Part shown: positions 9,191-57,131 of the stretch, piece by piece
Layout: every line of letters begins with the position of its first letter
How positions within the stretch are numbered: the stretch's first letter is position 1
NCBI GenBank assembly: GCA_946699065.1
Contig: CAMPDV010001733.1
Span: forward strand, 31,905 to 95,904
From: Loxodes magnus
Lineage: Eukaryota; Ciliophora; Karyorelictea; Loxodida; Loxodidae
Reading direction: 5' to 3'
Length of the DNA stretch: 64,000 bases
The notes under the pieces: generated by a model
The model's input: the letters and a program-made list of their open reading frames with translations, nothing else
Told to the model about the DNA's origin: nothing
Databases searched by the model: none
Translations under genes and position numbers: made by a program

Positions 9191-10274
9191 ATGGAGAAAA
9201 AACAAACGGAGAAAAAAGAAAAGCAATTTACTAAAATTATTTTTTTAAGAAAACTCTTAAGAGCGAGAAGCCACATTTTAGGGAAAATATCTCTACTTCA
9301 TTTTAAGTATGAAATTCTGCCTAACTTATGCTACTAAAAGTTAATAAACAATATCAGTTATGACCAAAGTAAAGGTATTTCTTTAATATTTTTTAGACTA
9401 AGTCATTACTGGTCACACTTCAGCTGTGCTATCGGTAGCCATATCAAGGGATCTAAATTGAATTGTATCAGGTTCAGCATTTCCTGAAAATTCGATAAAG
9501 ATCTGGAATTTCCAGACAGGTGCTCTCCTAAGAACTATAACAGGAAATAATTATGCTTTATCGGTAGTAATCTCCCCTGACTCTAACTACATTGTATCAG
9601 GATCTGGTGACAAAACCATAAAGATCTGAAATTTATAGAATGGTTCTCTCATAAGAACTTTAACGGGGCATACTTCTCCTATTACTTCGGTAGTAATCTC
9701 CTATGACTCTAGCTATATAGTATCAGGATCTTATGACACTACTATAAAGATCTGAAATTTCCACAATAGAACTCTCCTAAGAACTATAACGGGTCATACT
9801 AATGCAGTTATATCGGTAGTAATCTCCTATGACTCTAGATATATTATATCGGGATCTGGTGATACAACTATAAAGATTTGGGATTTCTAGACTGGTCAGC
9901 TTGTGCGAACTCTTACTGGGCATTCTGACTGAGTTTCATCGGTGATAGTGTCTAAGGATAATAGGTATATAATATCAGGTTCTGGTGACAGGACTATTAA
10001 GATATGGGACTTCTCTTCTGGTTAGTGTATTCGTACTCTTTAAGGTCACTCAAGTTCTGTATCAAGTATTCAGTTAAGTGTTGATTCAAGTGTTATCTTT
10101 TCTGGTTCAGGTTACAGAACAATCAAGATCTGGAACTTTGATAAGGGTGAGTGTATATAGACTTTACAAGGGCATAATTTAGATATACATTCTATAGCAT
10201 TGAGTGTTGATAATAGATGGTTGGTATCGGGAGGATTTGACAAGACGATAAGAAAGTGGAGCATTTCTAGTTGA
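9191..10274 (+). CDS. WD40 hypervariable beta-propeller protein, copy 2
   Basis: Intact after removal of the 22-nt intron 9375-9396: 1062 coding bases, 353 residues plus TGA at 10272-10274. It has a basic N-terminus (MEKKQTEKKEKQF), a conserved helical segment of about 45 residues, then seven WD40 repeats. Internal TGA codons fall at Trp positions: LNW in repeat 1, KIW in repeats 2 and 3, SDW in repeat 5. Repeat 2 has lost one codon and reads TGNNYALSV where other copies have TGHTxxxLSV. Variable turns include GSYDTT (repeat 3), GSGYRT (repeat 6) and GHNLDIHSI/GGFDKT (repeat 7). The last repeat ends KWSI where others have KWRV or KWRI. It is transcribed outward from spacer 1, toward the LINE relic. 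Confidence 0.9.
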
Positions 10275-10800
10275 GTAACTTGCTATTTGACTTAATTAAA
10301 TTTTACGATTAAAGATATAAGATTTTGGTAATGCATTTAAATGAATATTCAATGATAACTATGTTTTTTGTTATTTGAAATGTTTGCTTTATATATTTAT
10401 TTAAAAATTTGTTAGTATAATTAGAATTTGTAAATCTTTTTTTTAAATGGTATTTTGTAAAAATGAAAAAACTTATTTTTGTTTTAAGGAAAAATATTTG
10501 ATTTTAAAAATTTTAGCAAACTTTTTGTTGCTTTTTTATTTCAAGAAAAAAATTTGATAAGTTTAATTTTTTTGAAATGATAAAAAACAAAAGTTATTGT
10601 TTATGTTTTTGATAAAAATGCATTTTTTTACTTGGAATTAAAATTTTTTAAATTTGAATTTCTTTTCGAGTAAATGAAAAAACTAGTGATAAAATTTTTA
10701 AACTTTATAAGAATTTACTTAATTGAAAAGGATCTCAATTAAAAAGGAGAGAAAAGAAAGTAAAGAATGAAATTGTGAACAATTATTTTTTTATATTTTA
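10275..10800. other. WD40 copy 2 downstream flank
   Basis: The first bases after the stop match the other five copies (GTAACTTGCTATTTGACT), followed by very AT-rich DNA. This flank is shorter than those of copies 3, 4 and 6, having lost the C-free tract and the first of two recurrent CTACnAAAGATTTTCGG motifs. From about 10660 it rejoins the shared 180-bp block that precedes each retroelement region. No gene seen. Confidence 0.6.
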
Positions 10801-10845
10801 GCTCTGAGTCTTACACTACAGAAGATTTTCGGGATGGATAAATTA
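10801..10845 (+). repeat. recurrent CTCTGAGT...CTACnnAAGATTTTCGGGATGG motif
   Basis: One of nine copies in the window: also 21311-21351(-), 21792-21836(-), 32737-32780(+), 33220-33262(+), 44642-44690(-), 45205-45256(-), 57782-57830(+) and 58283-58325(+). Its orientation always follows the adjacent WD40 gene. It is richer in GC than its surroundings. It may be an element end, a 3' processing signal or a structured RNA; I cannot tell which. Confidence 0.6.
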
Positions 10846-10899
10846 AAAAAAAGGGTTAGAGTTTTGATAGATATAAAAATGTTTAACAATACTTTTTAA

Positions 10900-11165: not shown

Positions 11166-11178
11166 TTAAATTAAAAAA

Positions 11179-15640: not shown

Positions 15641-16033
15641 AGTTAAATTTAAATTTAAGAACAACATGTGTAAGAGAAAGATTTAGATTAGCTATCTATA
15701 AGTCATTAAATATTGCACTAGTGTTGGGAATAATAGTTGATTTTTACCTTTCATTATAATATCAGCAATGCTAGCTCCAATTTAACAAAAATAATTCTAC
15801 TTATAAAAAGATAAAAATTACACCATTTAATCTTTATTCTCAAAATCAGAGCAAAGAAATAAATCTGAAGTAAGATAAATATTTTAAAAAAATTAAGAAT
15901 TGCCAAGATAATCAAAACCTTGCTTACTTATGAATATTTGCAAATAGATATTATAATTGATAATTTCAAAGAGTTTAATAAGCATAGCAATATTTAAATA
16001 AAAAAATTTATTCTAAGAATACCTTTAAAGAAA
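15641..16033. repeat. 3' part of the LINE relic, shared with 28100-28490 and 39400-39790
   Basis: Near-identical sequence occurs at 28100-28490 (+) and inverted at 39400-39790. It ends abruptly at TTTAAAGAAATAAAGT, where the homology switches to the flank of the reverse-transcriptase element. Confidence 0.7.
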
Positions 16034-16938
16034 TAAAGTAATTGAATTATAGTTAAATATTTGATGTAAGTATAATTTTGTTATTATTAGGAAATGAATA
16101 ATAATGGCTTATATTTAAATTTGTTTAAACTGACAATTATAAAATAATTAATTTTACATAATTATGTTTAATTAAATTTATATAAATTAATAATTTATAC
16201 TTAACTTATAATAAAAGTTAGTTAAGATTATTATTATAATTACTTATATTACTTAGAACTAAAAATTATACATTCATTAAATTTATAATTATTGATAATT
16301 CTTTATTAATTTTATTTTATACAGTTATCTCTAAAGGTATGTTTAACTATATTTACTTTTTAATTCACTAAATTATTGTTTTAATTATTGTAGACATTAA
16401 TTATCAAATGAGAACTTTTATATTTTTATAATCTAGTAATCAAATGCTTATTGTTAACCAATTATTTAAAACTCTTATCAAAATTATGAAAAGCATCCTC
16501 TTTATTAGTTTTAAATTGATACAAAGATAATTAATTCTAGCATATAATTATTGAATTATTTTAGATTTTTGATATAGTATTTTTAATATTAATATCTTAC
16601 TATTATAAAGGATTATTTTAAACTATATTTTGCTATCATTTAGAATTTTATATTATTAAAGTAATAAAGCTAAAGTTTCCTTTGGTTTACTTAGAACTTC
16701 AATTCCTTTTAGATATTTCTTCCTTTATATTCTCTATGTTTTATTAATTATAGTTAAATAAAGAGTTATTTAAATGGCTTAGCAATTTAATTAGTTTTTA
16801 GAACCTAAATTTTAATATTTATTTATAAAAATGAATGCTATAAATTAAAGCTATTTAGTAATAATATTTAACTTTAATAAAAGAGTTATTGTATGAAACT
16901 GTTTATTTCAATTTTAAATTTTAAACTAAAATTATTTT
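16034..16938. repeat. AT-rich flank of RT element, copy B
   Basis: Reverse complement of 37631-38530 and 62691-63600. No gene seen. Confidence 0.65.
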
Positions 16939-19700
16939 TTGACATCTATAACTGCAAGAATTGCTTCAATTATAGACATTAGTAAATGTTTTTAATGCTT
17001 TTTAATATAATCTTGAACTCATCAATTTTTAATTACTCTTGTTATAGTCTCATCTTTTATTTCTCCATTTTTACTTTTTCCATTTCTAATCATTCTAATC
17101 TTCTTGATATAAGTTTCTTGTAAAATCTTTTTATTTAGAAATCTAAATATCTAAAATAAGACTTTAGAAAGGAGTTTATAAGTCCTTAATCATATATTAT
17201 AATGCGTCTTAAGTCATAATTCTCAATCTCTTATATTAGAATAGTATATACATTTCAAAATCTCCTCAAATGTACCATACTCTCCACATATACAGTAGGG
17301 ATTATCAATAGGATAATCAAGATCTTAAAGATCTTTTCTAAAATTAAAAGATTGGGTTCTAAGTTTATATATACTGATAATTTCTTGTCTAAATTATTTG
17401 TTCAACTTAGTGTAAGTAATTACTAAAAATTGGTTAAGATTACTAAACTGCTTAGTATATATTTTAGCTCTTAAACTTTTGAGTAGCTGTATTATACAAA
17501 TATTGTTCTTTTTTGACTCTTATATATTTAGTAAACATTTTTTAATTTGTACTAATCTTGGAATTCTACAGGGCGATACTATAGATGTCTGATAATCGCT
17601 AAACTTTATCATAGCATTGAAATCAAATTTTTCAGTTGGTAATGAAAAGAGAGCCTATTGTCGATGTTGGAAAATTAATGCTTTCTTATTTCATTTTATA
17701 ATAGAATTTAAAAAACTTTATTGTCATAATGTGTTTGAAAGATAACCAGTTTAAATCTATGAAACATAACTTATTAATTGCTGAAGTTGCTGCTTAAAAT
17801 GCTTTTCTTGAAATCATTCTCATACTTGATTCAATTCTATTCAAAACTCAAGTTATTCCTCTCTGAATACACCATGGTACTAGTTCTCTCCATATTCTGC
17901 TTTAGGTAATGTAAAAAGTTTGCATAAAGTTTTAAAATGCCAAGAAATCACATTCTTATATCTAATTAGTTAAAAAACTGCTTTTTTCATTGCAGCTAAA
18001 TACTTGAACGCGACTTCTTTACAATGAGGATTAAAATTCTTCTTCTAATGTAGCATTACATCTAAATATGTTACTTTTTCCTTTTAAATAATTGGTTAAT
18101 TATCTAATCATAAATTTAAATTTTATTATTTTTAATGTTTCTTTAAAATTTAGATGCATTCAGATTTGATAAATTTTATCTTTAATTGAGTTTATGTAAA
18201 AATGCTTACTTGTTTCATTTATTAACTCCTTCATCTACTTTGCAGTTTTGGAAAGAAGAATCAAATCATCTGCTCATCGTCTACGTGCGAAGCTAATACT
18301 CCAACCCTGGCATTTGAATCCCAATCAGGTATTTTTACTTTCCAAATATCTAATTACTATGTCATATGGTCCATGTGACTTTCCTTACATAACTCCATTG
18401 TTGTATTATAATGTTCTGATGTTCTTTCCTCTATTTTAAATGAAGAATTTAGGTTTTTGTAAAACGATTCTAAGGCTATTATTATTCCAAGTGGTAGTTT
18501 AACTCTCTTAAGTTAATCAAACAAAAGTCTTCTTTCTATTGAGTCAAACATTTTTTAAACATCTATCAGTGTTGCTATCAATTTAGTCTTACTTTTAGCA
18601 CTTTTCCGATAGTTATCAATTATTTGTTATATTATTCAAATTTATTAAGTTGCTTATCTAATTTTCATAAATCCCATTTATGTAGGGTGAATCAAATTTC
18701 TCTAATAAAGCAGATTGTATAGTCTTTTTGTTAAAGCTTTATCATATAGTTTTATAATAATATTAATAAGAGAAATAAGTAGTCAATTTTTCCAGTCATC
18801 TTTATTTCCTTTTTTAAATATTGGAATTACCGACAATGTATTTAATTCCTAAGGGATTCTTCCAAATCTTAACATATTATTCAGAAAAGAGTGAAGAATT
18901 ATTATCAAATATTATCCACCGTATTTCAGAAATTCACTTTTTATTCTGTCTGGACCAGCTGCTTTTCCATTCGTAATTTCTTTTATAATTTCTTGTATTT
19001 CTCGTATGGTAAAAAGATCAAATCCTTACAAATATGAGAGTTGATAATCTTTAATTTCTTAAATACTATCTTATATTTTATCTATTTTTTAATTACTAAG
19101 ATTTATTTATTATTTAGTTAAATTAGAATATTTGTTAAAAATCAATTCTCCCATGAATCAATGGATTTATTTTTGATTTCTTAATTAAAGTTCATTTAAT
19201 TTATTATTTTAGGCTTTTTAATTTTCTTAGTATGTGAAAATATTTCTTTAGCATCTCCATTTAGAAGTAAAAGTTTCTTTTTTGCTTTGTTTTTTCAAAC
19301 TTTCACAAATTAGACTTGAAGTCATTCAGAATGTTGTTTCACTTTTTCATGAAGATTAGTTACTTATTAGTTGATTCTTCCAGATATAATATGTGCTTCT
19401 TTATATACTGAGTTAGCCCTTTTAGGCGTACATATTTGTTAGTAAGATCTGGAGATATTTGTTATAACTTGAGTCTGGAATAAAGGATGGTAATGTTTAA
19501 TCAGCATTGTATTAGATGTTATTTTTGATAAATTTATATTAAACTTCAAGATTATCTTAATCTATCTAAAAGAATTCTAGATAAGTTTGCAGGAAAAATT
19601 CTAAATATTTTTGATGATATATTGCATCTTATAAGCTATTTATTTTATATTTCCTCAAATTCTTGCACATTTTCAATTAATCTCACATAAAATTAAGTTT
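16939..19700 (-). pseudogene. non-LTR reverse transcriptase relic, copy B
   Basis: Reverse complement, almost base for base, of 34863-37630; domain details are given there. On this strand the motif C codons (TGA GCA GAT GAT) lie near 18265-18276 and the C-terminal CICGEYG Cys motif near 17280. It carries the same frame break upstream of motif B as copies C and D, so all three derive from one already disrupted ancestor. The short open frame at 18248-18439 on the opposite strand is a shadow of this region. Confidence 0.75.
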
Positions 19701-22489: not shown

Positions 22490-23576
22490 TCAACTCGAAA
22501 CTCTCCATTTTCTTATCGTCTTGTCACTAGCTCCCGATACCAACCATCTATTATCAACACTCAATGCTATAGAATGTATTGATCTTGAATGCCCTTACAA
22601 AGTCTATATACACTCACCCTTATCAAAGTTCCAAATCTTGATTGTTTTATCAATTGAACCAGAAAATATTACACTTGAATCAACACTTAGCTGAATACTT
22701 GATACACCATCTACGTGACCTTGAAGAGTACGAATACACTAACCAGAAGAGAACTCCCATATCTTAATAGTCTTGTCACCAGAACCTGATATTATATACC
22801 TATTATCCTTAGACACTATCACTGATAAAACATAACCTGAATGCCCAGTAAGAGTTCGCACAAGCTGACCAGTCTAGAAATCCCAGATCTTTATAGTTTT
22901 ATCCCAAGATCCCGATATAATATATCTAGAGTCATAGGAGATTACTACCGATATAACTGAGTCAGTATGCCCCGTTATAGTTCTTAGGAGAATTCCATTG
23001 TGGAAATTTCAGATCTTTATGGTTTTGTCATGAGATCCCGATACTATATAGCTAGAGTCATAAGAGATTACTACCGAGAAAACTATAGAAGTATGCCCCA
23101 TTAAAGTTCTTATGAGAGAACCATTCTATAAATTTCAGATCTTTATGGTTTAGTCAGCAGATCCTGATACGATATAATCAGAGTCAGGGGAGATTGCTAC
23201 CGATAAAATAGTAAAAGTATGTCCTGTTATAGTTCTTTGGAGAGCACCTGTCTGGAAATTCCAGATCTTTATCAAATTTTCAGGATATACTGAACCTGAT
23301 ACAATTCAATTCAGGTCACTTGATATGGCTACCGATTACACAGGCTAAGTGTGACCAGTAAGGATTTAGTCTAAAAAATATTAAAGAAATACCTTTACTT
23401 TGGTCATGACTGATCTTATTTATTAACTTTTAGTAGCATAAGTTAGGCAGAATTTCATACTTAAAATGAAGTAGAGATATTTTCCCTAGTATGTGGCTTC
23501 TCGCTCTTAAGAGTTTTCTTAAAAAAATAATTTTAGTAAATTGCTTTTCTTTTTTCTCCGCTTCTTTTTTCTCCAT
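22490..23576 (-). CDS. WD40 hypervariable beta-propeller protein, copy 3
   Basis: Intact: 1087 bp minus the 22-nt intron (23371-23392) gives 355 codons including the terminal TGA at 22490-22492. It starts [13 protein letters not shown] at ATG 23574-23576, with the usual N-terminal segment and seven WD40 repeats. The start of repeat 1 (GHTQPVQSV, VYPENL) matches copy 1. Others are its own: GSADQT (repeat 2), [15 protein letters not shown] (repeat 3), GHSGYVLSV (repeat 5), [15 protein letters not shown] (repeat 6), GHSRSIHSI (repeat 7). Repeat 7 ends GASDKT, shared only with copy 6. TGA stands for Trp in repeats 1-3. It faces outward from spacer 2, opposite copy 4. Confidence 0.9.
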
Positions 23577-28755: not shown

Positions 28756-29669
28756 TAAACTTAAAATAAATATTATAATCATAAAGATTAAAAAAATGAA
28801 GCCCGTTTTTACCAAATAAAATAAGAAAGGTAAAAATTAATAAGAATATGAAGAGAAAAAGTAGAAACAATCAAAACCTAGGAAGAGAATGTCCACACCT
28901 CCAAAGTAATAAGAAACTCCAGTTGACTAAGATCTTTCATAAATTAATCTTAGTGAAGATCGAAATAGCATTGAATAACTTACAGAATTAGTAAAAAATT
29001 CGCTTAATGAGGTTAAAAAGCTTAAGGAGTAAAATCAAATATTGATAGAGAATAGTGAAAAAGTAGAAGATAGATTAATTAAATAAGAAAGAGAAATGGA
29101 TGCCTATTGAAATATTCAAACTGACTGCTCTTAGTAGATGTAGTAGACTCATGATCATAATTAATTAAATAAACAGAACGTGCATAATAGCCAGAACCAA
29201 TTGCGATATTGGGGCAAAATCAAATTTAAGAATAATTTTAAAACAATTAGCAAGGTTGTCAAATGGAAATTGAAAAAAGACCAAAAATTTATCAGAATAC
29301 AATGTAGAGTAGAAAGTGCTATTACTGCAAGAAAAAAGGACACTAATACAAATAGTGTAGAAATTTCTATGTATTCAAGAATGAATTTAATTAGAGAGTT
29401 AAGAGACTGACAGAAAGAATTTATATTACTGAGAGAGGATCTATTTATCAAATTAAAGAGACAAGCGCCAAAAGAATATTAGCAAGGTAGATGGATGAAA
29501 GATGGAGAGAGAAGAGAAATACAAGATTTAAGACAAGAAAAAATAGAAATGAAACAATAAACTTTTCTTTTTATTCACCAGATTATTCTGGTTGGAAAGA
29601 GGGAAATTGCTGAAAATCCAAGAAGACCTCTAAACAATTTTATCTATTATTAATATAAACTTAAAATAA
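28756..29669 (+). mobile_element. 900-bp insertion bounded by 14-bp direct repeats
   Basis: TAAACTTAAAATAA occurs at 28756-28769 and again at 29656-29669, exactly 900 bp apart. The homologous region at 39110-39123 (inverted) has a single copy with matching flanks on both sides, so it is the empty site. The segment carries one ORF. It could be a small mobile element with its target duplication, an IES-like germline segment, or a repeat-mediated deletion at the other locus. No terminal inverted repeats are obvious. Confidence 0.75.
28796..29560 (+). CDS. coiled-coil basic protein, ORF1-like, inside the 900-bp insertion
   Basis: The frame from ATG 28796 (MKPVFTKQNKKGK) is basic at first, with PRKRMSTPPKQQ. 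A clear coiled coil follows (SIEQLTELVKNSLNEVKKL, residues about 65-105), then a Gln/His-rich linker, then a basic domain with LRYWGKIKFKNNFK, VVKWKLKKDQKFIRI and RELRDWQKEFILLRE. TGA serves as Trp at 29107 (DAYW) and 29408 (RDW). The stretch 29180-29410 is free of all three stop triplets, which supports the frame. The layout resembles ORF1 proteins of non-LTR elements: coiled coil, then a nucleic-acid-binding domain. That assignment is inference. The end is uncertain; it may run on to about 29640. Confidence 0.65.
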
Positions 29670-29975: not shown

Positions 29976-30990
29976 TATTGACTGATAATTACAAAAATAA
30001 CATAAATAATAAATATAATATTAGTTTGCTATAAAAATAGAAAGTTATCTAAATTTATTAATTATAACTAATCTAATATCTAAATTAAAGAGAAATTAAT
30101 TAATAACTAATAAAGCTAAAAGGATAAAATTTTAAGTATTTAATAGACATAATTAAACATATTAAAGCTTATTTTAATAATAAAATTAAATATTACTATT
30201 TAATAATTGTAAGATAAAATTAGTGATACACTATTTCTAGTTAGTTTAAATATTTACTTTCTACTACTTATATTTATTACATTTATATATTTTGATTAGA
30301 ATCAACATTAAAATAAATTATATTAGTTTATTATTTTAAGAGAGACCTTTATAAATAAAAAGTTTTAATGAAATAGTAGTAAGAAAGTGGACAAATAAAA
30401 GAGTTTATCTTATAAATTCTAAAAATAATTTTTTTTTAATAATTTGATGTTTTTTTATATTTATTCAAACTAGTTAATAAGAAACTTATTGTATTTCATT
30501 TCTTTTAATTAGTAAAAAGCTTAAAGAAATCATTTTTTTGATTAAATGTAAGTGAAAAATAATAATTAATAACAATAGCTTTAAAAAAATGGTAATGTTT
30601 TATTTATCATTTAAAAGGGTCTATAAAGAAATAATTTTTTATTATTAAGAGTCTTTGATTAAAAGCACAAATAAGTAGTAATTAATAAATGCATATTAAA
30701 GTTATTATAATAAGGATATAATTCTTCATTATAAAACTTTTGAAATAATAGTTTATCCCTTTATTTAAAAGTAAAAAGAAATAAAATAATTAAAATTGTA
30801 AAAGTTTGTACACTATTAGTTTAATATCTTATCTTGTTTTAAGACAAAAATAGAAAAATCAATGTTTAAGAAGATATTTATAAGTATGCTTAATAAATAA
30901 TTTAATTGTTTAATTGTATTGAAATTAAGTAAGTAAAATTAATTGAGTTATTTTAATTAAATAGTTATTGAAGTAAGTTATAAAATTAAA
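29976..30990. repeat. right inverted-repeat arm of spacer 2 (WD40 copy 4 upstream region)
   Basis: Inverted relative to 23577-24560 and homologous to 8380-9190 and 55030-56044. It carries the 235-bp variable segment (about 30055-30300). The copy 4 promoter should lie near its right end. Confidence 0.7.
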
Positions 30991-32077
30991 ATGGAGAAAA
31001 AAGAAACGGAGAAAAAAGAAAAGCAATTTACTAAAAGTATTTTTTTAAGAAAACTCTTAAGAGCGAGAAGCCACATTTTAGGGAAAATATCTCTACTTCA
31101 TTTTAAGTATGAAATTCTGCCTAACTTATGCTACTAAAAACTAATAAATAAGATCAGTTATGACCAAAGTAAAGGTATTTCTTTAATATTTTTTAGACTA
31201 AGTCCTCACTGGTCACACTTGATCTGTTTGGTCGGTAGCTATATCAAGTGACATGAATTGAATTATATCATGTTCTGGATATCCTGAAAATTCGATAAAG
31301 ATCTGGAATTTCCAGACAGGTTCTCTCCAAAGAACTATAACAGGACATAATTCTCATGTTAGATCGGTAGTAATCTCCCTTGACTCTAACTATATTGTAT
31401 CAGGATCTTGTGATTCAACTATAAAGATCTGAAATTTATAGAATGGTTCTCTCATAAGAACTTTAACGGGGCATACTTCTCCTATTACTTCGGTAGTAAT
31501 CTCCTATGAGTCTAGATATATTATATCGGGATCTGGAGGTAAAACCATAAAGATCTGAAATTTCCACAATGGAACTCTCCAAAGAACTATAACGGGTCAT
31601 ACTGATATAGTTAACTCGGTAGTAATCTCCTATGACTCTAGATATATTATATCGGGATCTTGGGATAAAACTATAAAGATTTGGGATTCCTAGACTGGTC
31701 AGCTTGTGCGAACACTTACTGGGCATTCGGACTGAGTTTCATCGGTGATTGTGTCTAAGGATAATAGGTATATATTATCAGGTTCGGATGACAGTACTAT
31801 TAAGATATGGGACTTCTCTTCTGGTTAGTGTATTCGTACTCTTTAAGGTCATGCAAGTGGTGTATTAAGTATTCAGTTAAGTGTTGATTCAAGTGTAATA
31901 TTTTCTGGTTCATGGGATAAAACAATCAAGATATGGAACTTTGATAAGGGTGAGTGTATATAGACTTTGTAAGGGCATACAGATGATATACATTCTATAG
32001 CATTGAGTGTTGACAATAGATGGTTGGTATCGGGAGGAAAGGACCAGACAATTAGAAAGTGGAGAGTTTCGAGTTGA
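30991..32077 (+). CDS. WD40 hypervariable beta-propeller protein, copy 4
   Basis: Intact: 1087 bp, intron 31175-31196 (22 nt), 354 residues plus TGA 32075-32077. It begins MEKKETEKKEKQF. Repeat 1 is GHTWSVWSV with SCSGYPENS, the only copy with Cys in that turn. The others are GHNSHVRSV/GSCDST (repeat 2), GHTSPITSV/GSGGKT (repeat 3), GHTDIVNSV/GSWDKT (repeat 4), GHSDWVSSV/GSDDST (repeat 5), GHASGVLSI/GSWDKT (repeat 6) and GHTDDIHSI/GGKDQT (repeat 7). Repeat 3 has Gly for the structural Asp. TGA encodes Trp in repeats 1-3 and 5. The 87-residue open frame on the opposite strand is a shadow of this gene. Confidence 0.9.
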
Positions 32078-33263: not shown

Positions 33264-34862
33264 TTTTCTTAAAGGGATAGAATTTTAAAAGATTTGCAAA
33301 GTTTTTTAAATTACTTTTAAGAAGTAAAGATAAAAAATAAATGACAATTTTAGGAAGAAACAAAATAAGTAAAAAATTTTTCTATAAGAGGGCTTAAAAC
33401 TAACTTTTTAATAGATATTGCGAATTTTTAAAAATAACTAATCTAAAAAGATCTTAAAAATCTATTTATAAAAATATGATCAATCAAATAGAAAAAATGA
33501 GGTTCAATACATCTGTAATAATAAATTTTAGGCCAATTTACAAAGAATCTAAAAAAAAGTAATTAAAAAAGGATCTAAATAATATATCTAACCTAACTAT
33601 ATAAAATATAGAAACAAAAATTTATTAATCAAGTTTAAAAATATTCTGCTTTATTATAATAATTAGAAAAACATTAAAAATCGAAAAGATGAGTAAAAGA
33701 GTTTTGAAAAGAGCTTACTACGATTAACTATCTGCTTTTAGTTTGCGAAAAGATGTTAATTTAGAAGAGAAAAATTAGTTTTTAAGAAAAAATTGCTATA
33801 TTAAGTATTTTTTCTCTTCAAAATTTTTTTAATTTCGTAATATTAAAAGGAATAGGTTTAAAGATAAGCTTTCTGATTTAAAGCAACTTGAATATATCTA
33901 CTATGTATATAGAAAATAGATTTTATTTATTAATCTTAAAATTTGAATTCCTAATGAAGGTATTTTATTAAAGCTGAAAGCTTTTTTTTTTAATAGATTG
34001 ATTATTTATGATATAAAAGGATTTGTTAGTAAAGTATATAAATAATTTGAATATATGGAAAATAATAAAAATCTTAAGTTTCTTGTAAATTATCTTATAC
34101 TTGCATCTAAAATAAGAATAAAATGATATTCTAATATTAAATAATAAGAATTACCAAAATGAAAGTGTAAATAATTAAGAAATCAATATACCTTAATTAT
34201 ATCAAAAAAGGTTAAAAGCTTTAATCTTTTGTATTAATTAAAATAATATACAAAGTGTAATTTAATAACTATTATAATTATATCTATAAAAAATGGCAAA
34301 TATTTCGTACAATATAAAAAGAAACATATATAGCATAATAAAAAGCAAAGTTTCTACTAAGCCGATAATGCTAATAGTACACAATTTCCCAAATAAGCTT
34401 AATAATGAATTATTTTTGTTATATTCTAAATGATTAGAGAACTAAATGATAATTTATAATTTAAGGATTCCTTTAATAAAGGTTTGCTTTAATATAGAAT
34501 ATAGTATTGTTTAATTTAAGATAGTAAATATTCATAAACATAAAAACATTTAAAGTGGTTTAATAAATATGATTTTTAAAAGATTAAGCACTTATTTAAA
34601 TTTAAAATATCTTATCAAGAAATTAAATTAAAATGTTTTCATATTCATTTTATAATTAAATAGTCATTATTTATATTTATCTATTTGATTGATGTTTTAA
34701 AGATTGTAATTATATTTATTCATAAAGTATGATATCAACTGAAAATTGCTAGATATTTAAAGATAAAAACTTAATTCTTAAAACTATTATAAGATAAACA
34801 GTGATAAGATGATATTATAGCTTAAAAATAACATTTTTTCTGTAAATTTATTTATAAAAAAA
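33264..34862. repeat. AT-rich region, copy C
   Basis: Same as 58326-59940 and the inverted 19701-21310. No gene I can support. Confidence 0.55.
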
Positions 34863-37630
34863 ACTTAATTTTATGTGAGATTAATTGAAAATGTGCAAGA
34901 ATTTGAGGAAATATAAAATAAATAGCTTATAAGATGCAATATATCATCAAAAATATTTAGAATTTTTCCTGCAAACTTATCTAGAATTCTTTTAGATAGA
35001 TTAAGATAATCTTGAAGTTTAATATAAATTTATCAAAAATAACATCTAATACAATGCTGATTAAACATTACCATCCTTTATTCCAGACTCAAGTTATAAC
35101 AAATATCTCCAGATCTTACTAACAAATATGTACGCCTAAAAGGGCTAACTCAGTATATAAAGAAGCACATATTATATCTGGAAGAATCAACTAATAAGTA
35201 ACTAATCTTCATGAAAAAGTGAAACAACATTCTGAATGACTTCAAGTCTAATTTGTGAAAGTTTGAAAAAGCAAAGCAAAAAAGAAACTTTTACTTCTAA
35301 ATGGAGATGCTAAAGAAATATTTTCACATACTAAGAAAATTAAAAAGCCTAAAATAATAAATTAAATGAACTTTAATTAAGAAATCAAAAATAAATCCAT
35401 TTATTCATGGGAGAATTGTACTTTTAACAAACATTCTAATATAACTAAATAATAAATAAATCTTAGTAATTAAAAAATAGATAAAATATAAGATAGTTTT
35501 TTAAGAAATTAAAGATTATCAACTCTCATATTTATAAGGATTTTATCTTTTTACCATACAAGAAATACAAGAAATTATAAAAGAAATTACGAATGGAAAA
35601 CCAGCTGGTCAAAACAGGATAAAAGGTGAATTTCTGAAATATGGTGGATAATATTTGATAATAATTCTTCACTCTTTTCTGAATAATATGTTAAGATTTG
35701 GAAGAATCCCTTAGGAATTAAATACATTGTCGGTAATTCCAATATTTAAAAAAGGAAATAAAGATAACTGGAAAAACTGACTACCTATTTCTCTTATTAA
35801 TATTATTATAAAACTATATGATAAGGCTTTAACAAAAAGACTATACAATCTGCTTTATTAGAGAAATTTGATTCACCCTACATAAATGGGATTTATGAAA
35901 ATTAGATAAGCAACTTAATAAATTTGAATAATATAACAAATAATTGATAACTATCGGAAAAGTGCTAAAAGTAAGACTAAATTGATAGCAACACTGATAG
36001 ATGTTTAAAAAATGTTTGACTCAATAGAAAGAAGACTTTTGTTTGATTAACTTAAGAGAGTTAAACTATCACTTGGACTAATAATAGCCTTAGAATCGTT
36101 TTACAAAAACCTAAATTCTTCATTTAAAATAGAGGAAAGAACATCAGAACATTATAATACAACAATGGAGTTATGTAAGGAAAGTCACATGGACCATATG
36201 ACATAGTAATTAGATATTTGGAAAGTAAAAATACCTGATTGGGATTCAAATGCCAAGGTTGGAGTATTAGCTTCGCTCGTAGACGATGAGCAGATGATTT
36301 GATTCTTCTTTCCAAAACTGCAAAGTAGATGAAGGAGTTAATAAATGAAACAAGTAAGCATTTTTACATAAACTCAATTAAAGATAAAATTTATCAAATC
36401 TGAATGCATCTAAATTTTAAAGAAACATTAAAAATAATAAAATTTAAATTTATGATTAGATAATTAACCAATTATTTAAAAGGAAAAAGTAACATATTTA
36501 GATGTAATGCTACATTAGAAGAAGAATTTTAATCCTCATTGTATAGAAGTCGCGTTCAAGTATTTAGCTGCAATGAAAAAAGCTGTTTTTTTAACTAATT
36601 AGATATAAGAATGTGATTTCTTGGCATTTTAAAACTTTATGAAACTTTTTACATTACCTAAAGCAGAATATGTAGAGAACTAGTACCATGGTGTATTCAG
36701 AGAGGAATAACTGGAGTTTTGAATAGAATTGAATCAAGTAGGAGAATGATTTCAAGAAAAGGATTTTAAGCAGCAACTTCAGCAATTAATAAGTTATGTT
36801 TCATAGATTTAAACTGGCTATCTTTCAAACACATTATGACAATAAAGTTTTTTAAATTCTATTATAAAATGAAATAAGAAAGCATTAATTTTCCAACATC
36901 GACAATAGGCTCTCTTTTCATTACCAACTGAAAAATTTGATTTCAATGCTATGATAAAGTTTAGCGATTATCAGACATCTATAGTATCGCCCTGTAGAAT
37001 TCCAAGATTAGTACAAATTAAAAAATGTTTACTAAATATATAAGAGTCAAAAAAGAACAATATTTGTATAATACAGCTACTCAAAAGTTTAAGAGCTAAA
37101 ATATATACTAAGCAGTTTAGTAATCTTAACCAATTTTTAGTAATTACTTACACTAAGTTGAACAAATAATTTAGACAAGAAATTATCAGTATATATAAAC
37201 TTAGAACCCAATCTTTTAATTTTAGAAAAGATCTTTAAGATCTTGATTATCCTATTGATAATCCCTACTGTATATGTGGAGAGTATGGTACATTTGAGGA
37301 GATTTTGAAATGTATATACTATTCTAATATAAGAGATTGAGAATTATGACTTAAGACGCATTATAATATATGATTAAGGACTTATAAACTCCTTTCTAAA
37401 GTCTTATTTTAGATATTTAGATTTCTAAATAAAAAGATTTTACAAGAAACTTATATCAAGAAGATTAGAATGATTAGAAATGGAAAAAGTAAAAATGGAG
37501 AAATAAAAGATGAGACTATAACAAGAGTAATTAAAAATTGATGAGTTCAAGATTATATTAAAAAGCATTAAAAACATTTACTAATGTCTATAATTGAAGC
37601 AATTCTTGCAGTTATAGATGTCAAAAAATA
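34863..37630 (+). pseudogene. non-LTR reverse transcriptase relic, copy C
   Basis: A 5'-truncated ORF2; the enzyme would copy element RNA into DNA at a nicked target. It starts in the linker (FIPDSSYNKY) with no endonuclease. RT landmarks follow in order: NGKPAGQNRIKGEFLKYGG near 35595, IPIFKKGNKDNWKNW then LPISLIN near 35735 (TGA in the NWxPISL Trp position), motif A IDVQKMFDSIERR near 36000, motif B GVMQGKSHGPY near 36166, motif C W-ADDLILLSKT near 36285 (TGA where Tyr or Phe is usual). A C-terminal Cys motif CICGEYGTFEEILKC sits near 37270. The frame shifts near 35130 and between motifs A and B. The ADD pair is intact. Copies B and D share the same breaks. Confidence 0.8.
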
Positions 37631-38530
37631 ATTTTAGTTTAAAATTTAAAATTGAAATAAACAGTTTCATACAATAACTCTTTTATTAAAGTTAAATATT
37701 ATTACTAAATAGCTTTAATTTATAGCATTCATTTTTATAAATAAATATTAAAATTTAGGTTCTAAAAACTAATTAAATTGCTAAGCCATTTAAATAACTC
37801 TTTATTTAACTATAATTAATAAAACATAGAGAATATAAAGGAAGAAATATCTAAAAGGAATTGAAGTTCTAAGTAAACCAAAGGAAACTTTAGCTTTATT
37901 ACTTTAATAATATAAAATTCTAAATGATAGCAAAATATAGTTTAAAATAATCCTTTATAATAGTAAGATATTAATATTAAAAATACTATATCAAAAATCT
38001 AAAATAATTCAATAATTATATGCTAGAATTAATTATCTTTGTATCAATTTAAAACTAATAAAGAGGATGCTTTTCATAATTTTGATAAGAGTTTTAAATA
38101 ATTGGTTAACAATAAGCATTTGATTACTAGATTATAAAAATATAAAAGTTCTCATTTGATAATTAATGTCTACAATAATTAAAACAATAATTTAGTGAAT
38201 TAAAAAGTAAATATAGTTAAACATACCTTTAGAGATAACTGTATAAAATAAAATTAATAAAGAATTATCAATAATTATAAATTTAATGAATGTATAATTT
38301 TTAGTTCTAAGTAATATAAGTAATTATAATAATAATCTTAACTAACTTTTATTATAAGTTAAGTATAAATTATTAATTTATATAAATTTAATTAAACATA
38401 ATTATGTAAAATTAATTATTTTATAATTGTCAGTTTAAACAAATTTAAATATAACCCATTATTATTCATTTCCTAATAATAACAAAATTATACTTACATC
38501 AAATATTTAACTATAATTCAATTACTTTAT
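37631..38530. repeat. AT-rich flank of RT element, copy C
   Basis: Same as 62691-63600 and the inverted 16034-16938. No gene seen. Confidence 0.6.
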
Positions 38531-39399
38531 TTCTTTAAAAACATATTTTAACTAAAACTATCCTTTAATATTATAAATGCTAAAACATTCAATTTTATCC
38601 TATCATTTTTATTATTTATATATATATCAACTATTATATTAGAAAGGCCCATATACCTTACAATTAATCAAATTAATTATAATTATTAAAATTATTTATT
38701 TTTATTTTTAAAAATTAATCATTTCAAAATCTTATTCACTATTTAAAACTTTAAATCATAAGTAATAATAATCAACTATAACACTTTAAATATTTAGACT
38801 TTATTCTATAATTATTGCCTTTCAACCATCCAAATTAACCTAAATTTAATAGTTTCTATATTTCATTCATGATTCTCTTTCACTCTCATCTTGACAAAGA
38901 ATTTTTTAGCTCATTAAATCTGTTAATGGGTTTTTAATATAATCTATTTTCTATTCACTTTAGTTCTTAAAAATCTCTAATGGTTTTCTAAATATTATTG
39001 ATGAAATATTTTTATGTACTTATCTAATTTAATTATCTTATCTTTTGTAAACTATTTATTAATATAGTTTAGTCATATAAAACAAGTCTTCTACACTATT
39101 TTCCATTAATTATTTTAAGTTTATTAAAAAATTTTAAAATATCTGTAAAAAGATTACGTTTGAAAATGTGCTTAAATATATCAATTCCTATCTACTTAAG
39201 CAAAGTTTATTGAATTGAGTTTTGATATATAGATGATTCAGTTCATATTAAAAATTATAAATATAAGTAATTAGTTTTTAGATTGAAATAGTTTCTTAAA
39301 TTGGATGTCTATTGTATTTAGCGTATATTATTAAAGAGAAAATGTTTTATATATCTTTTATTAAATCAACAAATCTTTTTGCTGTTGATATGACTTCAT
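38531..39399. repeat. junction region between RT flank and inverted LINE, with an empty insertion site
   Basis: 38531-38960 is repeated at 63597-64000. 39060-39399 is the inverted counterpart of 28490-28755 joined to 29656-29720, without the 900-bp insertion; the single TAAACTTAAAATAA lies at 39110-39123. Confidence 0.6.
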
Positions 39400-41690
39400 T
39401 TCTTTAAAGGTATTCCTAGAATAATTTTTTTTAAGTTAAATATTGCTATGCTTATCAAACTCTTTGAAATCATCAATTATAATATCTATTTGCAAATATT
39501 CATAAGTAAGCAAGGTTTCGATTATCTTGACAACTCTTCATTTTTAAAAAATATTTATCTTACTTCAGATTTATTTCTTTGCTCTGATTTTGAGAATAAA
39601 GATTAAATGGTGTAATTTTTATCTTTTTACTAAGTAGAATTATTTTTGTTAAATTGGAGCTATCATTGCTGATATTATAATGAAAGGTAAAAATCAACTA
39701 TTATTCCCAACACTAGTGCAATATTTAATGACTTATAGATAGCTAATCTAAATCTTTCTCTTACACATGTTGTTCTTAAATTTAAATTTAACTAAAAGAG
39801 TCTTGAGACATCTTTTCATTGTTGGAATTACTTCCTTCAATTAAAGATGTTATAATGTTTTTTAAAAGTTTTTCAACTCAAACACTTTCTACTTCATATT
39901 CTTCTTCAGCTATATTATCTTCTTCATCAGTTTGTTCATTCTAATCTTCCACTTGCTCATCTTTTTCTTCTTTTCCTTCCTTATTTTCATTATTCTTTTC
40001 ATCTCTATCTTTCTCTTCCGCTTCTTTACCCTTAGTCTCGGAACTTTCTATTATAAGTTTTTTTCTAATTCGAATAATTCTAATCTCCTTTTAAGTAACA
40101 TCCTATGGAAAATATTAATTTGCAGATCAATGTATTCTGCTTTGTTTTTTGGAAATTAATTGATATAATTTGGTCATAGGTTATTAATTTTCTAATTTCG
40201 CATTTTCCAATTTTTGCTATTAACTATTGTCACATATCTATATAGCAATCGCATTCCAGAATATGTTAAAATTAATAAAATCTCCACACATACAATGGGA
40301 ATTCTCAACTAAATAATGTCTGTCTTAAAGATCCTTACGAAAGTTGTAACTTTAGGTTCTGAGTTTGCATATACTAATTATTTCTTTTTGATACTATTTA
40401 TTTAGTTTTGGATAGGTAATTTAGGGGAATTATTATTATTATTCTAATTATTCTATAAATAACTTTGCAGTGGGCCTCCTTTTAGTCTTTTAATAGTTAC
40501 TTCATAAAATTTATGTTGAATCTTACTTTTAATATATTTTGTAAAAGTATTAAAGCTACTATTATATTCCTAATTATTAATATCTATTTCGTAACATTCA
40601 GATAGTCTTGTTACTTAATCTCTCTATAAATATCCTTCTTACCAATTGTTCTTAAAAAGGGAATTACTTATTAATTAATTCTTCCTAACTACGCGTGAGT
40701 TTCTTTATATACTTGATTAGCTCTTTTAACTTCAATATACTTCTTTATGAGGTCTTTTGTAAGTTTATTATATTTAGGGTCTGGAATAAATGAACCTAAT
40801 ATTTCATCTGCATTATATTATATATTGCGTTTAATACATGAGTATTAATCCTCTAAATTATTCCTATCAATTTGAAAAATTCATTATAGTTTCAAAAAAA
40901 TATTCTTAATATTTCTATCTGTCAATAGGGCCTTCCAGCCTGTTAATTTTATATTTTCCTAAAGTAATTATGTCCTAATAGACAATTGTGTTCAAGAGAA
41001 AATTTACCCTAATTGATATGTGATCAGTAAATAGTTAGTTATAATAAGCCTAGAAGTTTTCAAATTGATTAATATTCAGATGATTGTTTATTACAATATA
41101 GCCATTACAATACATAAAATATGTTACTTTATGTATGCAAGTGTTGCTGTTCATATTATTTACTATTTCAAGATATTTCTGAATAAGAAATTCCGGGAAT
41201 CTGTTTGTATTATCATAGTCATTATTAGGATTATCCCCATAATCTTATAGGGGAGCATTGAAATCTCCCATTAGAATATGTGGATTATTTGAGAATTGAT
41301 TAAGTAGCAAATTAATATAGTCATATGCTTGGTCTTTTATGTTCTCATTTTAGCTATTATCTGGCATGTAACAGGACGTAATAAATATATTATCTAGTTT
41401 GGCTATGATAAATCGATTCTAGGATACATCAATTATATTAGTTTCTTCAGTACTACTGAGTTATTCTTTAATAACTAGACATACACATCCTCCTTTTCCT
41501 GAATTTTTGTAATAAGTCCTATAACCTTATATTAATAATGGATGGAAATCTTGTTTTTACCAAGTTTCATTAATTGAAAAAATGTCAATACTATTTTCTC
41601 TTATGAATTCTTCTACTTTATATAGTTTACTTGCTAATCCATTTATGTTGACATGTCCAATCTTAATTTGATTGACGCTACTTCTTTTTT
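39400..41690 (-). pseudogene. non-LTR ORF2 relic, inverted and better-preserved copy
   Basis: Reverse complement of 13736-16033. The endonuclease is in one frame here: IKIGHVNINGLASKLYKV near 41680, then NETW, GGCVCLVIKE, NLLLNQFSNNPHILMGDFN near 41260, and TDHISI near 41015. This shows that the two one-base losses in the plus-strand copy are recent. After NFSNWQEQFRG the frame shifts before NADEILGSFIPDP. The RT core is missing as in the other copy. The acidic Glu/Asp-rich tail is encoded at about 39910-40050. Catalytic Asn, Glu, Asp and His residues of the EEP fold are all visible, but without RT the element cannot be autonomous. Confidence 0.75.
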
Positions 41691-45940: not shown

Positions 45941-47024
45941 TCAACTCGAAATCCTCCATTTTCTTATCGTATTGTCAAATCCTCCCGATACCAACCATCT
46001 ATTATCAACACCCAATGCTATAGAATTTATATCTAAAGTATGCCCTTACAAAGTCTATATACACTCACCCCTATCAAAGTTTCAAATCTTTATTGTTCTG
46101 TCACCAGAACCAGAAAAGATAACACTTGAATCAACACTTAACTGAATACTTGATACACTACCTGCATGACCTTAAAGAGTACGAATACACTAACCAGAAG
46201 AGAAATCCCATATCTTAATAGTACTCTCCCGAGAGCCAGATATTATATATCTAATATCCTTAGACACTAATACTTATTTTACATAGCTTGAATGCCCAGT
46301 AAGAGTTCTCACAAGCTGACCAGACTAGAAATCCCAAATCTTTATAGTTGTATCCCAAGATCCCGATATAATATATCTAGAGTCATAGGAGATTACTATC
46401 GATCTAACTATATCAGTATGTCCCGTTATAGTTCTTAGAAGAGTTCCATTGTGGAAATTTCAGATCTTTATAGTTGTATCTTCAGATCCTGATATAATAT
46501 ACTTAGAGTAAGGGGAGATTACTACCGAAGTAATAGGAGAAGTATGTCCCGTTAAAGTTCTTATGAGAGCACCAGTCTATAAGTTTCAGATCTTCATCGT
46601 GTTGTCACCAGATCCTGATACAATGTAGTTAGAGTCAGGGGAGATTACTACCGATAAAACATATGAAGTATGTCCTGTTATAGTTCTTTGGAGAGCACCT
46701 GTCTGGAAATTCCAGATCTTTATCGAATACTCAGGATATGCTGAACCTGATACAATTCAATTCAGGTCACTTGATATAGCTACCGAGTAAATAAATGAAG
46801 TGTCAGTAATGACTTAGTCTAAAAAATATAAAAGTAATACCTTTACTTTAGTCATAACTGATCTTATTTATTAGCTTTTAGTAGCATAAGTTAGGTAGAA
46901 TTTCATACTTAAAATGAAGTAGAGATATTTTCCCTAGAATGTGGCTTCTCGTTCTTAAGAGTTTTCTTAAAAAAATACTTTTAGTAAATTGCTTTTCTTT
47001 TTTCTCCGTTTCTTTTTTCTCCAT
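45941..47024 (-). CDS. WD40 hypervariable beta-propeller protein, copy 5
   Basis: Intact: 1084 bp minus intron 46819-46840 (22 nt) leaves 354 codons, ending at TGA 45941-45943; ATG at 47022-47024 (MEKKETEKKEKQF). It is the most diverged copy. Repeat 1 has lost one codon, so TGHT became TDT, followed by SFIYSV. Other turns are GSGDNT with MKIW (repeat 2), GSEDTT (repeat 3), GHTDIVRSI/GSWDTT (repeat 4), GHSSYVKQV/GSREST (repeat 5), GHAGSVSSI/GSGDRT (repeat 6) and GHTLDINSI/GGFDNT (repeat 7). In repeat 6 the KIW Trp is TGA where the other five copies have TGG, direct evidence that the two codons are interchangeable. Both codon losses seen in the family (copies 2 and 5) keep the frame. Confidence 0.9.
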
Positions 47025-54629: not shown

Positions 54630-56044
54630 AAATTATGATGTGCTATAAAGCAAAACATGTAGAATTGTTGATTAGGAACAGAAAGATATAGAATAATAGT
54701 AGACTAATAAAATGTATTAAGAGTAAATAATAATCTATTAGATTAGTTTTAAATAAAATATATTGCTAATCTGATACTTATATTATCTCATACTACAAAT
54801 AAGCATATTATGTTAAGTTTACTCTTTCAATTAATTCAGAAAATAGTAATAGAAGATATTATAAATATGCTTCCTTTCTTAAAAAAGCTTATAATTTTAT
54901 TTATATCAAACAACTTATTTTAATAAAGATAGTATTAATAGTGATAACTATGTTTTTTAGATTTGTATAGAATAATAGAATTAAGTTTTTATCTTTAAAT
55001 AATCTAGAATAATTTAGGTATTATTAATTAGAAATGATAATTACAAAAATAACATAAATAATAAATATAATATTAGTTTGCTATAAAAATAGAAAGTTAT
55101 CTAAATGTATTAATTATAACTAATCTAATATCTAAATTAAAGAGAAATTAATTAATAACTAATAAAGCTAAAAGAATAAAATGTTAAGTATTTAATAGAC
55201 ATAATTAAACATATTAAAGCTTATTTTAATAATAAAATTAAATATTACTATTTAATAATTGTAAGATATAATTAGTGATACACTATTTCTAGTTAGTTTA
55301 AATATTTACTTTCTACTACTTATATTTATTACATTTATATATTTTGCTTAGAATCAACATTAAAAGTAATAAATTATATTAGTTTATTATTATAAGAGAT
55401 ATCTTTATAAATAAAAAGTTTTAATGAAATAGTAGTAAGAAAGTGGATAAATAAAAGATTTTATCTTATAAATTCTAAAAATACTTTGTTTTAAGTAATT
55501 TGATATTTTTTAATATTTATTCAAACTAATTAATAAGAAACTTATTTTATTTCATTATTTAATTAGTAAAAAGCTTAAATAAATCATTTTTTTGATTAAA
55601 TGTAAGAGAAAAATAATAATTACTAGCAATAGCTTTAAAAAATTGTAATATTTTATTTATAATTTAAAAGGGTCTACAAAGAAATAATTTTTTCTTATTA
55701 AGAGTCTTTGATTAAAAGCACAAATAAGTAGTAATTAATAAATGCATATTAAAGTTATTATAATAAGGATATAATTCTTCATTATAAAACTTTTGAAATA
55801 ATAACTTATCCTTTTATTTAAAAGTAAAAAGAAATAAAATAATTAAAATTGTAAAATTTTGTACACTATTAGTTTAATATCTTATCTTGTTTTAAGACAA
55901 AAATAGAAAAATCAATGTTTAATAAGATATTTATAATTATGCTTAATAAATAATTAATTTGTTTAATTGTAATGAAATTGAGTCAGTAAAATTAATTGAC
56001 TTATTTTATTTAAATATTTATTGAAGTAAGTTATAAAAATTAAA
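54630..56044. repeat. right inverted-repeat arm of spacer 3 (WD40 copy 6 upstream region)
   Basis: Inverted relative to 47025-48230, but it contains both the 365-bp and the 235-bp (about 55105-55345) variable segments, so the two arms of one spacer differ. Confidence 0.7.
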
Positions 56045-57131
56045 ATGGTGAAAAAAGAAACGGAGAAAAAAGAAAAGCAATTTACTAAAATTATTTTTTT
56101 AAGAAAACTCTTAAGAGCGAGAAGCCACATTTTAGGGAAAATATCTCTACTTCATTTTAAGTATGAAATTCTGCCCAACTTATGCTACTAAAAGCTAATA
56201 AATAAGATCAGTTATGACCAAAGTAAAGGTATTTCTTTAATATATTTTAGACTAAGTCCTCACTGGTCACACATCACGTGTTTACTCGGTAGCCATATCA
56301 AGTGACCTGAATTGAATTGTATCAGGTTCGTACAACCCTGAAAATTCGATAAAGATCTGGAATTTCCAGACAGGTGCTCTCCAAAGAATTATAACAGGAC
56401 ATACTTTTACTATTTCATCGGTAGTAATCTCCCCTGACTCTAGCTATATAGTATCAGGATCTTCTGACTAAGCCATAAAGATCTGAAACTTATAGAATGG
56501 TGTTCTCATAAGAACTTTAACGGGGCATACTTCTCCTATTACTTCGGTAGTAATCTCCTATGACTCTAAGTATATTATATCAGGATCTGAAGACACAACT
56601 ATAAAGATCTGAAATTTCCACAATAGAACTCTCCTAAGAACTATAACGGGACATATTTATATAGTTATATCGGTAGTACTCTCCTATGACTCTAGATATA
56701 TTATATCGGGATCTGGTGATACAACTATAAAGATCTGGGATTTCTAGACTGGTCAGCTTGTGCGAACTCTTACTGGGCATTCTGACTGAGTTTCATCGGT
56801 GATTGTGTCTAAGGATAATAGGTATATATTAACAGGTTCGGATGACAGTACTATTAAGATATGGGACTTCTCTTCTGGTTAGTGTATTCGTACTCTTTAA
56901 GGTCATGCAAGAGGTGTATCAAGTATTGAGTTAAGTGTTGATTCAAGTGTAATATTTTCTGGTTCATGGGATAAAACAATCAAGATATGGAACTTTGATA
57001 AAGGTGAGTGTATATAGACTTTGTAAGGGCATACAGATGATATACATTCTATAGCATTGAGTGTTGACAATAGATGGTTGATATCGGGAGCTAGTGACAA
57101 GACGATAAGAAAGTGGAGAGTTTCGAGTTGA
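56045..57131 (+). CDS. WD40 hypervariable beta-propeller protein, copy 6
   Basis: Intact: 1087 bp minus intron 56229-56250 (22 nt) gives 355 codons ending with TGA 57129-57131. It starts MVKKETEKKEKQF; residue 2 is Val instead of Glu. It looks like a mosaic of the other copies. GHTSPITSV/GSEDTT in repeat 3 matches copy 5. GHSDWVSSV/GSDDST in repeat 5 matches copy 4. GHARGVSSI/GSWDKT in repeat 6 matches copy 1. GHTDDIHSI in repeat 7 matches copies 1 and 4 while its GASDKT matches copy 3. Own features are GHTSRVYSV with SYNPENS (repeat 1), GSSDQAIKIW (repeat 2) and GHIYIVISV (repeat 4). TGA is used for Trp in repeats 1-3 and 5. Confidence 0.9.

Follow-up and report, generated by a model that had tools for sequence, protein, structure and literature searches.

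A WD40 propeller multigene family of the ciliate Loxodes magnus with selection on its predicted binding face: a candidate recognition repertoire

What keeps a group of ciliate WD40 genes changing at the same few residues of each blade while the remainder of the protein is held almost fixed? The question is raised by a window of 64,000 nucleotides (the whole stretch of DNA analyzed here) from contig CAMPDV010001733.1 of the Loxodes magnus assembly GCA_946699065.1, in which six genes encode seven-bladed WD40 propellers. A first-pass annotation, made from the sequence alone, had proposed that these genes are a ciliate equivalent of the HET-E/HET-D/HET-R family of Podospora, whose products belong to the NOD-like receptors (NLRs). 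The genes are part of a high-copy family with one gene structure, a confidently predicted propeller fold, selection at positions chosen a priori, and blades that are mosaics between paralogues. A constant segment, a rigid scaffold and a hypervariable face, together with the copy number, the selection at the face codons and the shuffling of blades, fit a recognition repertoire, and we assign a probability of about 0.6 to the reading that the family is a large repertoire, encoded in the germline, of stand-alone recognition propellers. We infer the recognition function from the pattern of selection.

Gene structure and size of the family

The six genes have two exons, 348–353 codons including the stop, and seven blades each. 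Exon 1 (54–59 codons) is followed by a 28-nt GT-AG intron, and exon 2, which carries the seven blades, ends in TGA. On the minus strand lie W1 (14..1085, intron 895-922, 347 amino acids plus TGA, intact when TAA/TAG are read as Gln and TGA as Trp), W3 (22490..23576, intron 23371-23398, 352 amino acids plus TGA) and W5 (45941..47024, intron 46819-46846, 351 amino acids plus TGA, lacking one residue at the first GH without loss of frame). On the plus strand lie W2 (9191..10274, intron 9369-9396, 351 amino acids plus TGA), W4 (30991..32077, intron 31169-31196, 352 amino acids plus TGA) and W6 (56045..57131, intron 56223-56250, 352 amino acids plus TGA). The first-pass annotation had described six genes of seven blades in the range 9191..57131; all six genes, the 42 blades and every string quoted were recovered, but the range encloses only W2 to W6, W1 lying outside it. 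The 42-residue unit, which it had named for the Podospora repeats, holds for blades 2–6 of W4, but blade 1 has 44 residues and the last has 36 up to the stop. The PF00400 profile of Pfam recognizes seven WD40 stretches with 255.9 bits against a cut-off of 27, and WD40-type families account for the best 25 of the 55 Pfam matches of the family protein at E≤1.

The Loxodes magnus macronuclear (MAC) assembly is reported at 706 Mbp and is read with translation table 27, in which UGA is both stop and Trp (PMC11441545); the assembly used here holds 705,730,643 bases in 7,843 contigs. All six genes conform to this table: in-frame TAA/TAG occur at conserved Gln and TGA at conserved Trp (e.g. in TIKIW), and TGA terminates each gene. 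A pseudogene reading was rejected because the in-frame TGAs sit at conserved Trp in six of six copies, as table 27 explains. The intron of 28 nt is short, yet it exceeds the 25 bp within which 93% of Loxodes introns are reported to fall (PMC11441545). The window has a GC content of about 21% from base counts; over 44 copies, the coding sequences (CDSs) of the family average 35% and the upstream DNA (up to 500 bp) 15%.

The suspicion that the genome holds more copies was borne out. A pattern of 36 nt from exon 1, searched with at most 3 mismatches, occurs at 753 + 789 = 1,542 places, and its reversed control at 0 + 0. By this sequence count the family appears to comprise roughly 1,500 copies per assembly; alleles and duplicate contigs are among the 1,542 places (the contigs 1733/6321 and 940/7030 give equal coordinates), so there are fewer distinct genes. 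With the propeller as query at least 132 scored matches were obtained, all with frames open over 301–314 amino acids and W5 not among them, and the best 150 of the 2,787 candidates found with the N-terminal query have an identity of 93–98%.

Two samples were read. The first comprised 40 loci (L009–L048) selected by similarity and for this reason biased toward intact genes; 38 were complete, L036 was without the start ATG and L041 had a changed splice donor (TT at the 5’ splice site). Together with the six window genes, and with L041 never included, this set counts 45 copies; L036 was left out before the dN/dS analysis, and among the resulting 44 complete CDSs 39 were unique, i.e. the sampled copies are mostly distinct. 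The second sample, not chosen by propeller similarity, comprised 14 loci on 13 contigs, hand-picked among the first 100 of the 1,542 exon-1 places, with a perfect exon-1 match. The exon-2 frame was intact in 12 of them, whereas L053 carries a frameshift and L060 loses the frame part-way and has GC as splice donor; these two were left out. L061, whose 5’ splice site is changed, was retained among the 12. Thus 3 of the 14 loci are broken and 11 look functional from their sequence. The 39 unique and the 12 pattern-picked copies form a set of 51, already non-identical, with 48 distinct face codes and 28–35 five-residue codes per blade.

Variation and selection on the predicted face

With units numbered from two residues before GH, the variable residues of each blade are mainly positions 6, 7, 9 and 25, 27. 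Two clusters of variation per repeat, after GH and around Asp, had been noticed from the window; both exist at these positions, but Asp itself (26) and position 8 vary much less. In the 39 unique copies the entropy peaks at 7, 9, 25, 27 and 6 in most blades; the exceptions are blade 6, where it is highest at 6, then at 5 and 7, and low at 9, and blade 3, where positions 18 and 38 are also variable. In blades 2–7 of the 12 pattern-picked copies the mean entropy is 2.45 bits at 7, 2.36 at 25, 2.33 at 9, 1.98 at 27, 1.65 at 6 and 0.83 at 5.

The set {7, 9, 25, 27} used below was fixed beforehand from the codons published as positively selected in the Podospora HET genes, “pairs of codons 7, 9 and 25, 27” (PMC2873952), the numbering being matched through the S-W-D-K residues in the het-E table of that source and a HET-E repeat sequence. 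Among 58,905 four-position sets (positions 1–36, blades 2–7, 39 copies) it ranks second; given that single positions rank 25 > 7 > 9 > 6 > 27, the top set must carry 6 instead of 27. A later set of seven HET positions (10, 11, 12, 14, 30, 32, 39; PMC12222747) becomes 5, 6, 7, 9, 25, 27 and 34 after a shift by 5 of our own; positions 5, 6, 7, 9, 25 and 27 are the six most variable in the pattern sample, and 34 falls outside its top twelve. The variation is thus not spread evenly over the repeat: positions 7, 9, 25 and 27 make up 9.3% of the WD40 codons and carry 44% (six window copies), 42% (12 copies) and 43% (51 copies) of the amino-acid-changing differences.

An AlphaFold2 model of exon 2, built from the six window sequences, is a propeller of 28 strands with a mean predicted local distance difference test (pLDDT) of 96.4 and a predicted template-modeling score (pTM) of 0.92, in which all seven blades place positions 6 and 7 in the d-a loop, 9 at the second residue of strand a, and 25 and 27 in the b-c turn. 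The first-pass annotation had located the variable sites on the loops of the binding face, and the d-a and b-c loops of this confident model agree with it. The same loop placement of selected positions is described for HET-E (PMC1805685), and on the strength of these loops and of the homology to HET-E the hot positions would lie on the top face of the propeller. The nearest solved structures include the designed WRAP propellers, the WD40 domain of PkwA (5yzv), the repetitive propeller 2ymu, and WDR5.

The ratio of nonsynonymous to synonymous divergence (dN/dS) was computed pairwise by the method of Nei and Gojobori (NG86), with intervals from resampling of columns. At codons 7, 9, 25 and 27 it is 3.53 in the six window copies (bootstrap 2.08–7.38), 3.00 in the 39 unique copies (2.02–4.76), 3.09 in the 12 pattern-picked copies (2.21–4.74) and 3.06 in the 51 copies (2.21–4.53); the other WD40 codons give 0.28, 0.32, 0.35 and 0.33, respectively. 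When differences are weighted by a mutation spectrum derived from the flanks, the four codons still give 2.18 (1.45–4.06) in six, 2.01 (1.48–2.94) in 12 and 2.04 (1.59–2.78) in 51 copies, with all bootstraps above 1 and the remaining WD40 codons at 0.34–0.40, and 35 close pairs give 2.35 at the hot codons. Hence a ratio above 1 at the variable sites, as predicted from the window, is found with raw (3.00–3.53) and weighted (2.01–2.18) counts alike. At synonymous sites the hot codons and the other WD40 codons diverge to a similar extent (0.19 vs 0.18 in six copies, 0.21 vs 0.17 in 39), so a locally raised mutation rate is not the whole explanation. Neutral drift and a mutation hot spot were both rejected, given a dN/dS above 1 at the face codons also after weighting by the mutation spectrum.

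The flanks of the genes diverge by 0.066 (six copies) and 0.074 (39 copies) over 400 bp upstream, and by 0.12 and 0.08 over 200 bp downstream, against a WD40 dS of 0.18–0.19. Being less diverged than the synonymous sites, they are no clean neutral standard, and dS was kept as the main yardstick. The low upstream divergence between copies may reflect a conserved promoter or homogenization.

Exchange of blades and genomic setting

Genes of the family are mosaics of blades. In L010, blades 1–5 match L009 with 3 mismatches and blades 6–7 match W3 with 2, while L010 and L009 differ at 27 sites in blades 6–7. A two-parent mosaic improves the fit by at least 10 mismatches in 14 of 39 copies, a count uncorrected for picking the best of many parents; the neighbor-incompatibility test gives p=0.003, the minimum possible with 300 permutations, and linkage drops from an r2 of 0.12 below 20 nt to about 0.05. 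The exchange keeps the position of the blade: in 350 of 357 cases the nearest blade lies at the same position in another copy, and the 7 exceptions are all between blades 2 and 3. Within a gene, blades share on average 57% of amino acids (blades 2–6, 39 copies; highest pair 81%) and 58% of nucleotides (51 copies; highest pair 89%). Concerted evolution in the style of the HET genes was rejected on the grounds that blades are only about 57% alike within a gene and exchange keeps the blade position. Rare cross-position exchange was seen in L058, where blade 2 is nearest to a blade 3, and blade 3 to a blade 2, of other copies, and in L061, which carries the same GHASFVRSVVIS stretch in both blades 2 and 3. 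As an illustration only, free assortment of the blade codes present in 51 copies would yield 2.7e10 faces.

Duplicated blocks in either orientation make up the window region. Its genes alternate in orientation in blocks of several kb that are repeated, direct and inverted, at 84–97%; long, near-identical examples in the window include an inverted repeat of 16007-17936 with 36627-38556 (99%) and a direct repeat of 29983-38939 with 55035-64000 (97%). Among 24 neighborhoods, i.e. the window and loci chosen by similarity (552 ordered pairs), the match spanning the gene covers no less than 2.7 kb of upstream sequence in 284 pairs and no less than 4.0 kb of downstream sequence in 344, with 196 pairs satisfying both; these shared flanks indicate that the gene is part of a larger, often interrupted repeat unit. 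Contig 286 has nine copies among the places listed, all in one orientation, with 3 of 8 spacings of 12.3–12.4 kb. On ten contigs longer than 500 kb, 41 of 46 sites lie in the outer half (first 100 of the 1,542 places; clustered sites are not independent), and by median 8 of the ten have their copies toward the ends, which suggests subtelomeric clustering or assemblies that break at arrays.

Such a setting is what would be expected if the gene were simply carried along in a many-kb repeat unit and diversified without function, and the broken loci of the pattern sample point the same way. Nonetheless, a dN/dS of 0.28–0.35 in the scaffold and of 0.18 in the N-terminal segment (in six copies and in 39) requires function over most of the divergence, the face codons exceed 2, and 12 of the 14 pattern-picked exon-2 frames are intact. 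Neutral amplification is refuted for the family as a whole and is the least probable of the explanations considered, although single copies may be dead.

The high copy number over many contigs, the direct and inverted copies of several kb and the nearby fragments of long interspersed nuclear elements (LINEs) could also be read as the marks of a selfish element whose gene diversifies to escape host control. In the window, a LINE endonuclease fragment lies at 41238..41649 on the minus strand (Exo_endo_phos, E=3e-12), interspersed and outside the gene family; a reverse-transcriptase-like fragment at 61002..61500 (plus strand; RVT_1, E=0.015) and a CCHC-like piece at about 29310-29360 (plus strand; E=0.14) are below the cut-off. 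In the stretches beside the WD40 genes that were scanned against Pfam, which do not cover every base or frame, LINE fragments were the only other coding sequence. Since the copies read retain the intron, they were not made by retroposition, and selection acts on a predicted binding face; we regard a selfish element as improbable.

A scan of the window with Rfam gave no match, nor did a tRNA scan with the bacterial code. A NACHT profile (PF05729) had 31 matches over the cut-off in the genome, on contigs 104, 3, 256 (several) and others, and none of the matches listed lies in the window; of 14 control genomes, 11 also gave matches in this search, 3 of them over the cut-off. The matches are possible STAND (signal transduction ATPases with numerous domains) or NLR-like genes of Loxodes.

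The recognition reading and comparison with known systems

Each gene would produce a small protein composed of a near-invariant 59-residue N-terminus and a rigid seven-bladed propeller. In W4, exon 1 (30991..31168) encodes the conserved N-terminal segment (59 residues; 54–59 in the other five window genes), for which no known domain or database relative was found, and exon 2 (31197..32077) the propeller modeled above. The N-terminal 67 residues alone gave nothing over the cut-off in Pfam (maximum E of 1); the sole match, zf-CCHC_4 (E=0.016, residues 31–48), was taken as chance, the stretch holding one cysteine. For residues 1–60, 14 of 5.8 billion proteins shared words and none reached E≤10, with candidates restricted to 0.55–1.75 times the query length. 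The prediction for the segment alone is a single long helix (pLDDT 88.8, pTM 0.50), a weak result from an isolated 59-mer and six near-identical rows, and inspection of its hydrophobic pattern revealed nothing informative. No signal peptide or membrane segment was seen by eye, no predictor having been applied, and from its sequence the protein is probably intracellular.

The 28–35 residues at positions 7, 9, 25 and 27, and also 6, of each blade would form a variable binding surface, and the N-terminal segment could bind one common partner, passing on a signal, or self-associate. New specificities would have two sources, point mutation at the face codons and the homologous exchange of blades among paralogues, with selection favoring novelty on the face and holding the scaffold and the N-terminus fixed. 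Candidate ligands are parasite, bacterial or viral proteins, or the proteins of other Loxodes clones. Non-self or fast-evolving ligands are the likeliest class of target, since with clients from the cell itself a continued diversification of the face, across so many copies, would hardly be expected. A bolder version, which we hold only tentatively, is that of an anticipatory repertoire, a protist counterpart of antibodies or of the variable lymphocyte receptors (VLRs) of lampreys, in which about a thousand ready-made propellers, with blades shuffled between paralogues and 28–35 face residues tuned, would feed one orphan N-terminus, WD40-based and without an NLR engine.

Several observations weigh against the recognition reading. 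Diversifying selection alone does not imply a foreign ligand, and the N-terminus has no match to a signaling domain, nor to any protein at E≤10. Hot codons have a dS of 0.31 in the 12-copy pattern sample, compared with 0.22 elsewhere. Position 6 alone has a dN/dS of 0.92–1.24, not clearly above 1, and positions 8, 34 and 38 (5 slightly) also exceed 1 in the 39 copies, with few synonymous differences; dN at 8, 34, 38 and 5 is 0.06–0.17 against 0.39–0.78 at the hot positions. The weighted value for positions 5, 6, 7, 9, 25 and 27 is 1.37 (0.93–2.17) in the window copies; in the larger sets it is 1.60 and 1.48, both clear of 1. For blade 3 alone the values are 1.28 and 1.48 (six and 39 copies), and neither interval excludes 1; nor do the intervals for blade 7 (six copies) and blade 1 (39 copies). 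Finally, the estimates come from pairwise counting instead of a codon model on a tree, and the columns resampled are not independent events.

The same architecture could serve the cell’s own proteins. Substrate adaptors generally combine a constant segment with a variable WD40 face, and the N-terminus might dock on e.g. a ubiquitin ligase or a transport machine while the faces select endogenous clients or LINE proteins; LINE-class repeat elements number more than 30,000 in the Loxodes magnus genome (PMC11441545). We consider such diversified adaptors unlikely, though the strongest of the rival accounts: the Pfam scan, which was no dedicated test, recognized no F-box or other adaptor domain in the N-terminus, and fixed endogenous clients would not be expected to demand ongoing diversification at the same blade codons across so many copies.

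If the face binds non-self, the family would be among the largest single-scaffold recognition families known to us, and an unrelated lineage would have arrived anew at the positions that the HET receptors use, with neither the NLR machinery nor homogenization of internal repeats. It would make testable how single-celled predators recognize parasites or kin, and a natural library of propellers with a shared scaffold and differing faces would be useful for binder design. The first-pass annotation knew of no description of such a family, and within the literature searched none turned up for the ciliate group, nor did an account of a protist WD40 repertoire or of a ciliate allorecognition equivalent; WD40 has 0 occurrences in the main text of the paper on the Loxodes genome (PMC11441545).

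By sequence, the solved structures closest to the propeller are the highly repetitive WD40 protein 2ymu and the WRAP designs, which are also among the closest by fold (44–46% identity in the fold alignments). These are single proteins of near-identical blades, whereas in Loxodes the variation lies between paralogues and is not an internal repeat expansion. WDR5-like seven-bladed proteins have the same fold (TM-score about 0.94); WDR5 is a conserved chromatin protein, in contrast to the hypervariable multigene family of Loxodes.

The closest functional comparison is with the HNWD family of Podospora anserina, which includes HET-D/E/R and has 10 members (PMC1805685). HET-D/E recognize HET-C alleles through a WD40 domain in which the same four positions are under selection (PMC1805685, PMC2873952, PMC12222747), which makes it conceivable that the Loxodes propellers tell self from non-self when cells mate, in mating type or in clonal incompatibility, with a conspecific ligand. 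This special case of the recognition repertoire is rather less probable than the adaptors, as about 1,500 copies per assembly far exceed the 10 Podospora members. In both families positive selection acts on the same four codons (7, 9, 25, 27, i.e. 12, 14, 30, 32 in the 2025 numbering after our shift of 5), in Loxodes when pooled over blades and more weakly in single blades; the selected codons lie at the interaction surface, and sequence is exchanged among family members. HNWD genes encode HET and NACHT domains, vary in repeat number and have repeats 80–100% alike within a gene, under concerted evolution (PMC1805685, PMC2873952, PMC12222747). In contrast, no NACHT domain was found in the Loxodes propeller protein (N-terminal 67 residues scanned; upstream DNA 15% GC against 35% in the CDS), the complete copies, 44 in number (348, 352 or 353 codons), and the 12 intact pattern-picked ones all have seven blades, blades average 57% amino-acid identity where HNWD repeats exceed 80%, and exchange occurs nearly always between equal blade positions (350/357), while HNWD units move between any positions and loci. 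Of the proposal with which we started, a many-copy ciliate family selected at the same codons as HET-D/E/R stands, but equivalence to the HET NLR family does not, given the absence of NACHT, of high internal conservation and of repeat-number variation in the copies read, and an exchange that keeps blade position. By analogy, the Loxodes family would work like the sensor half of a HET receptor, but it does not belong to the HET family.

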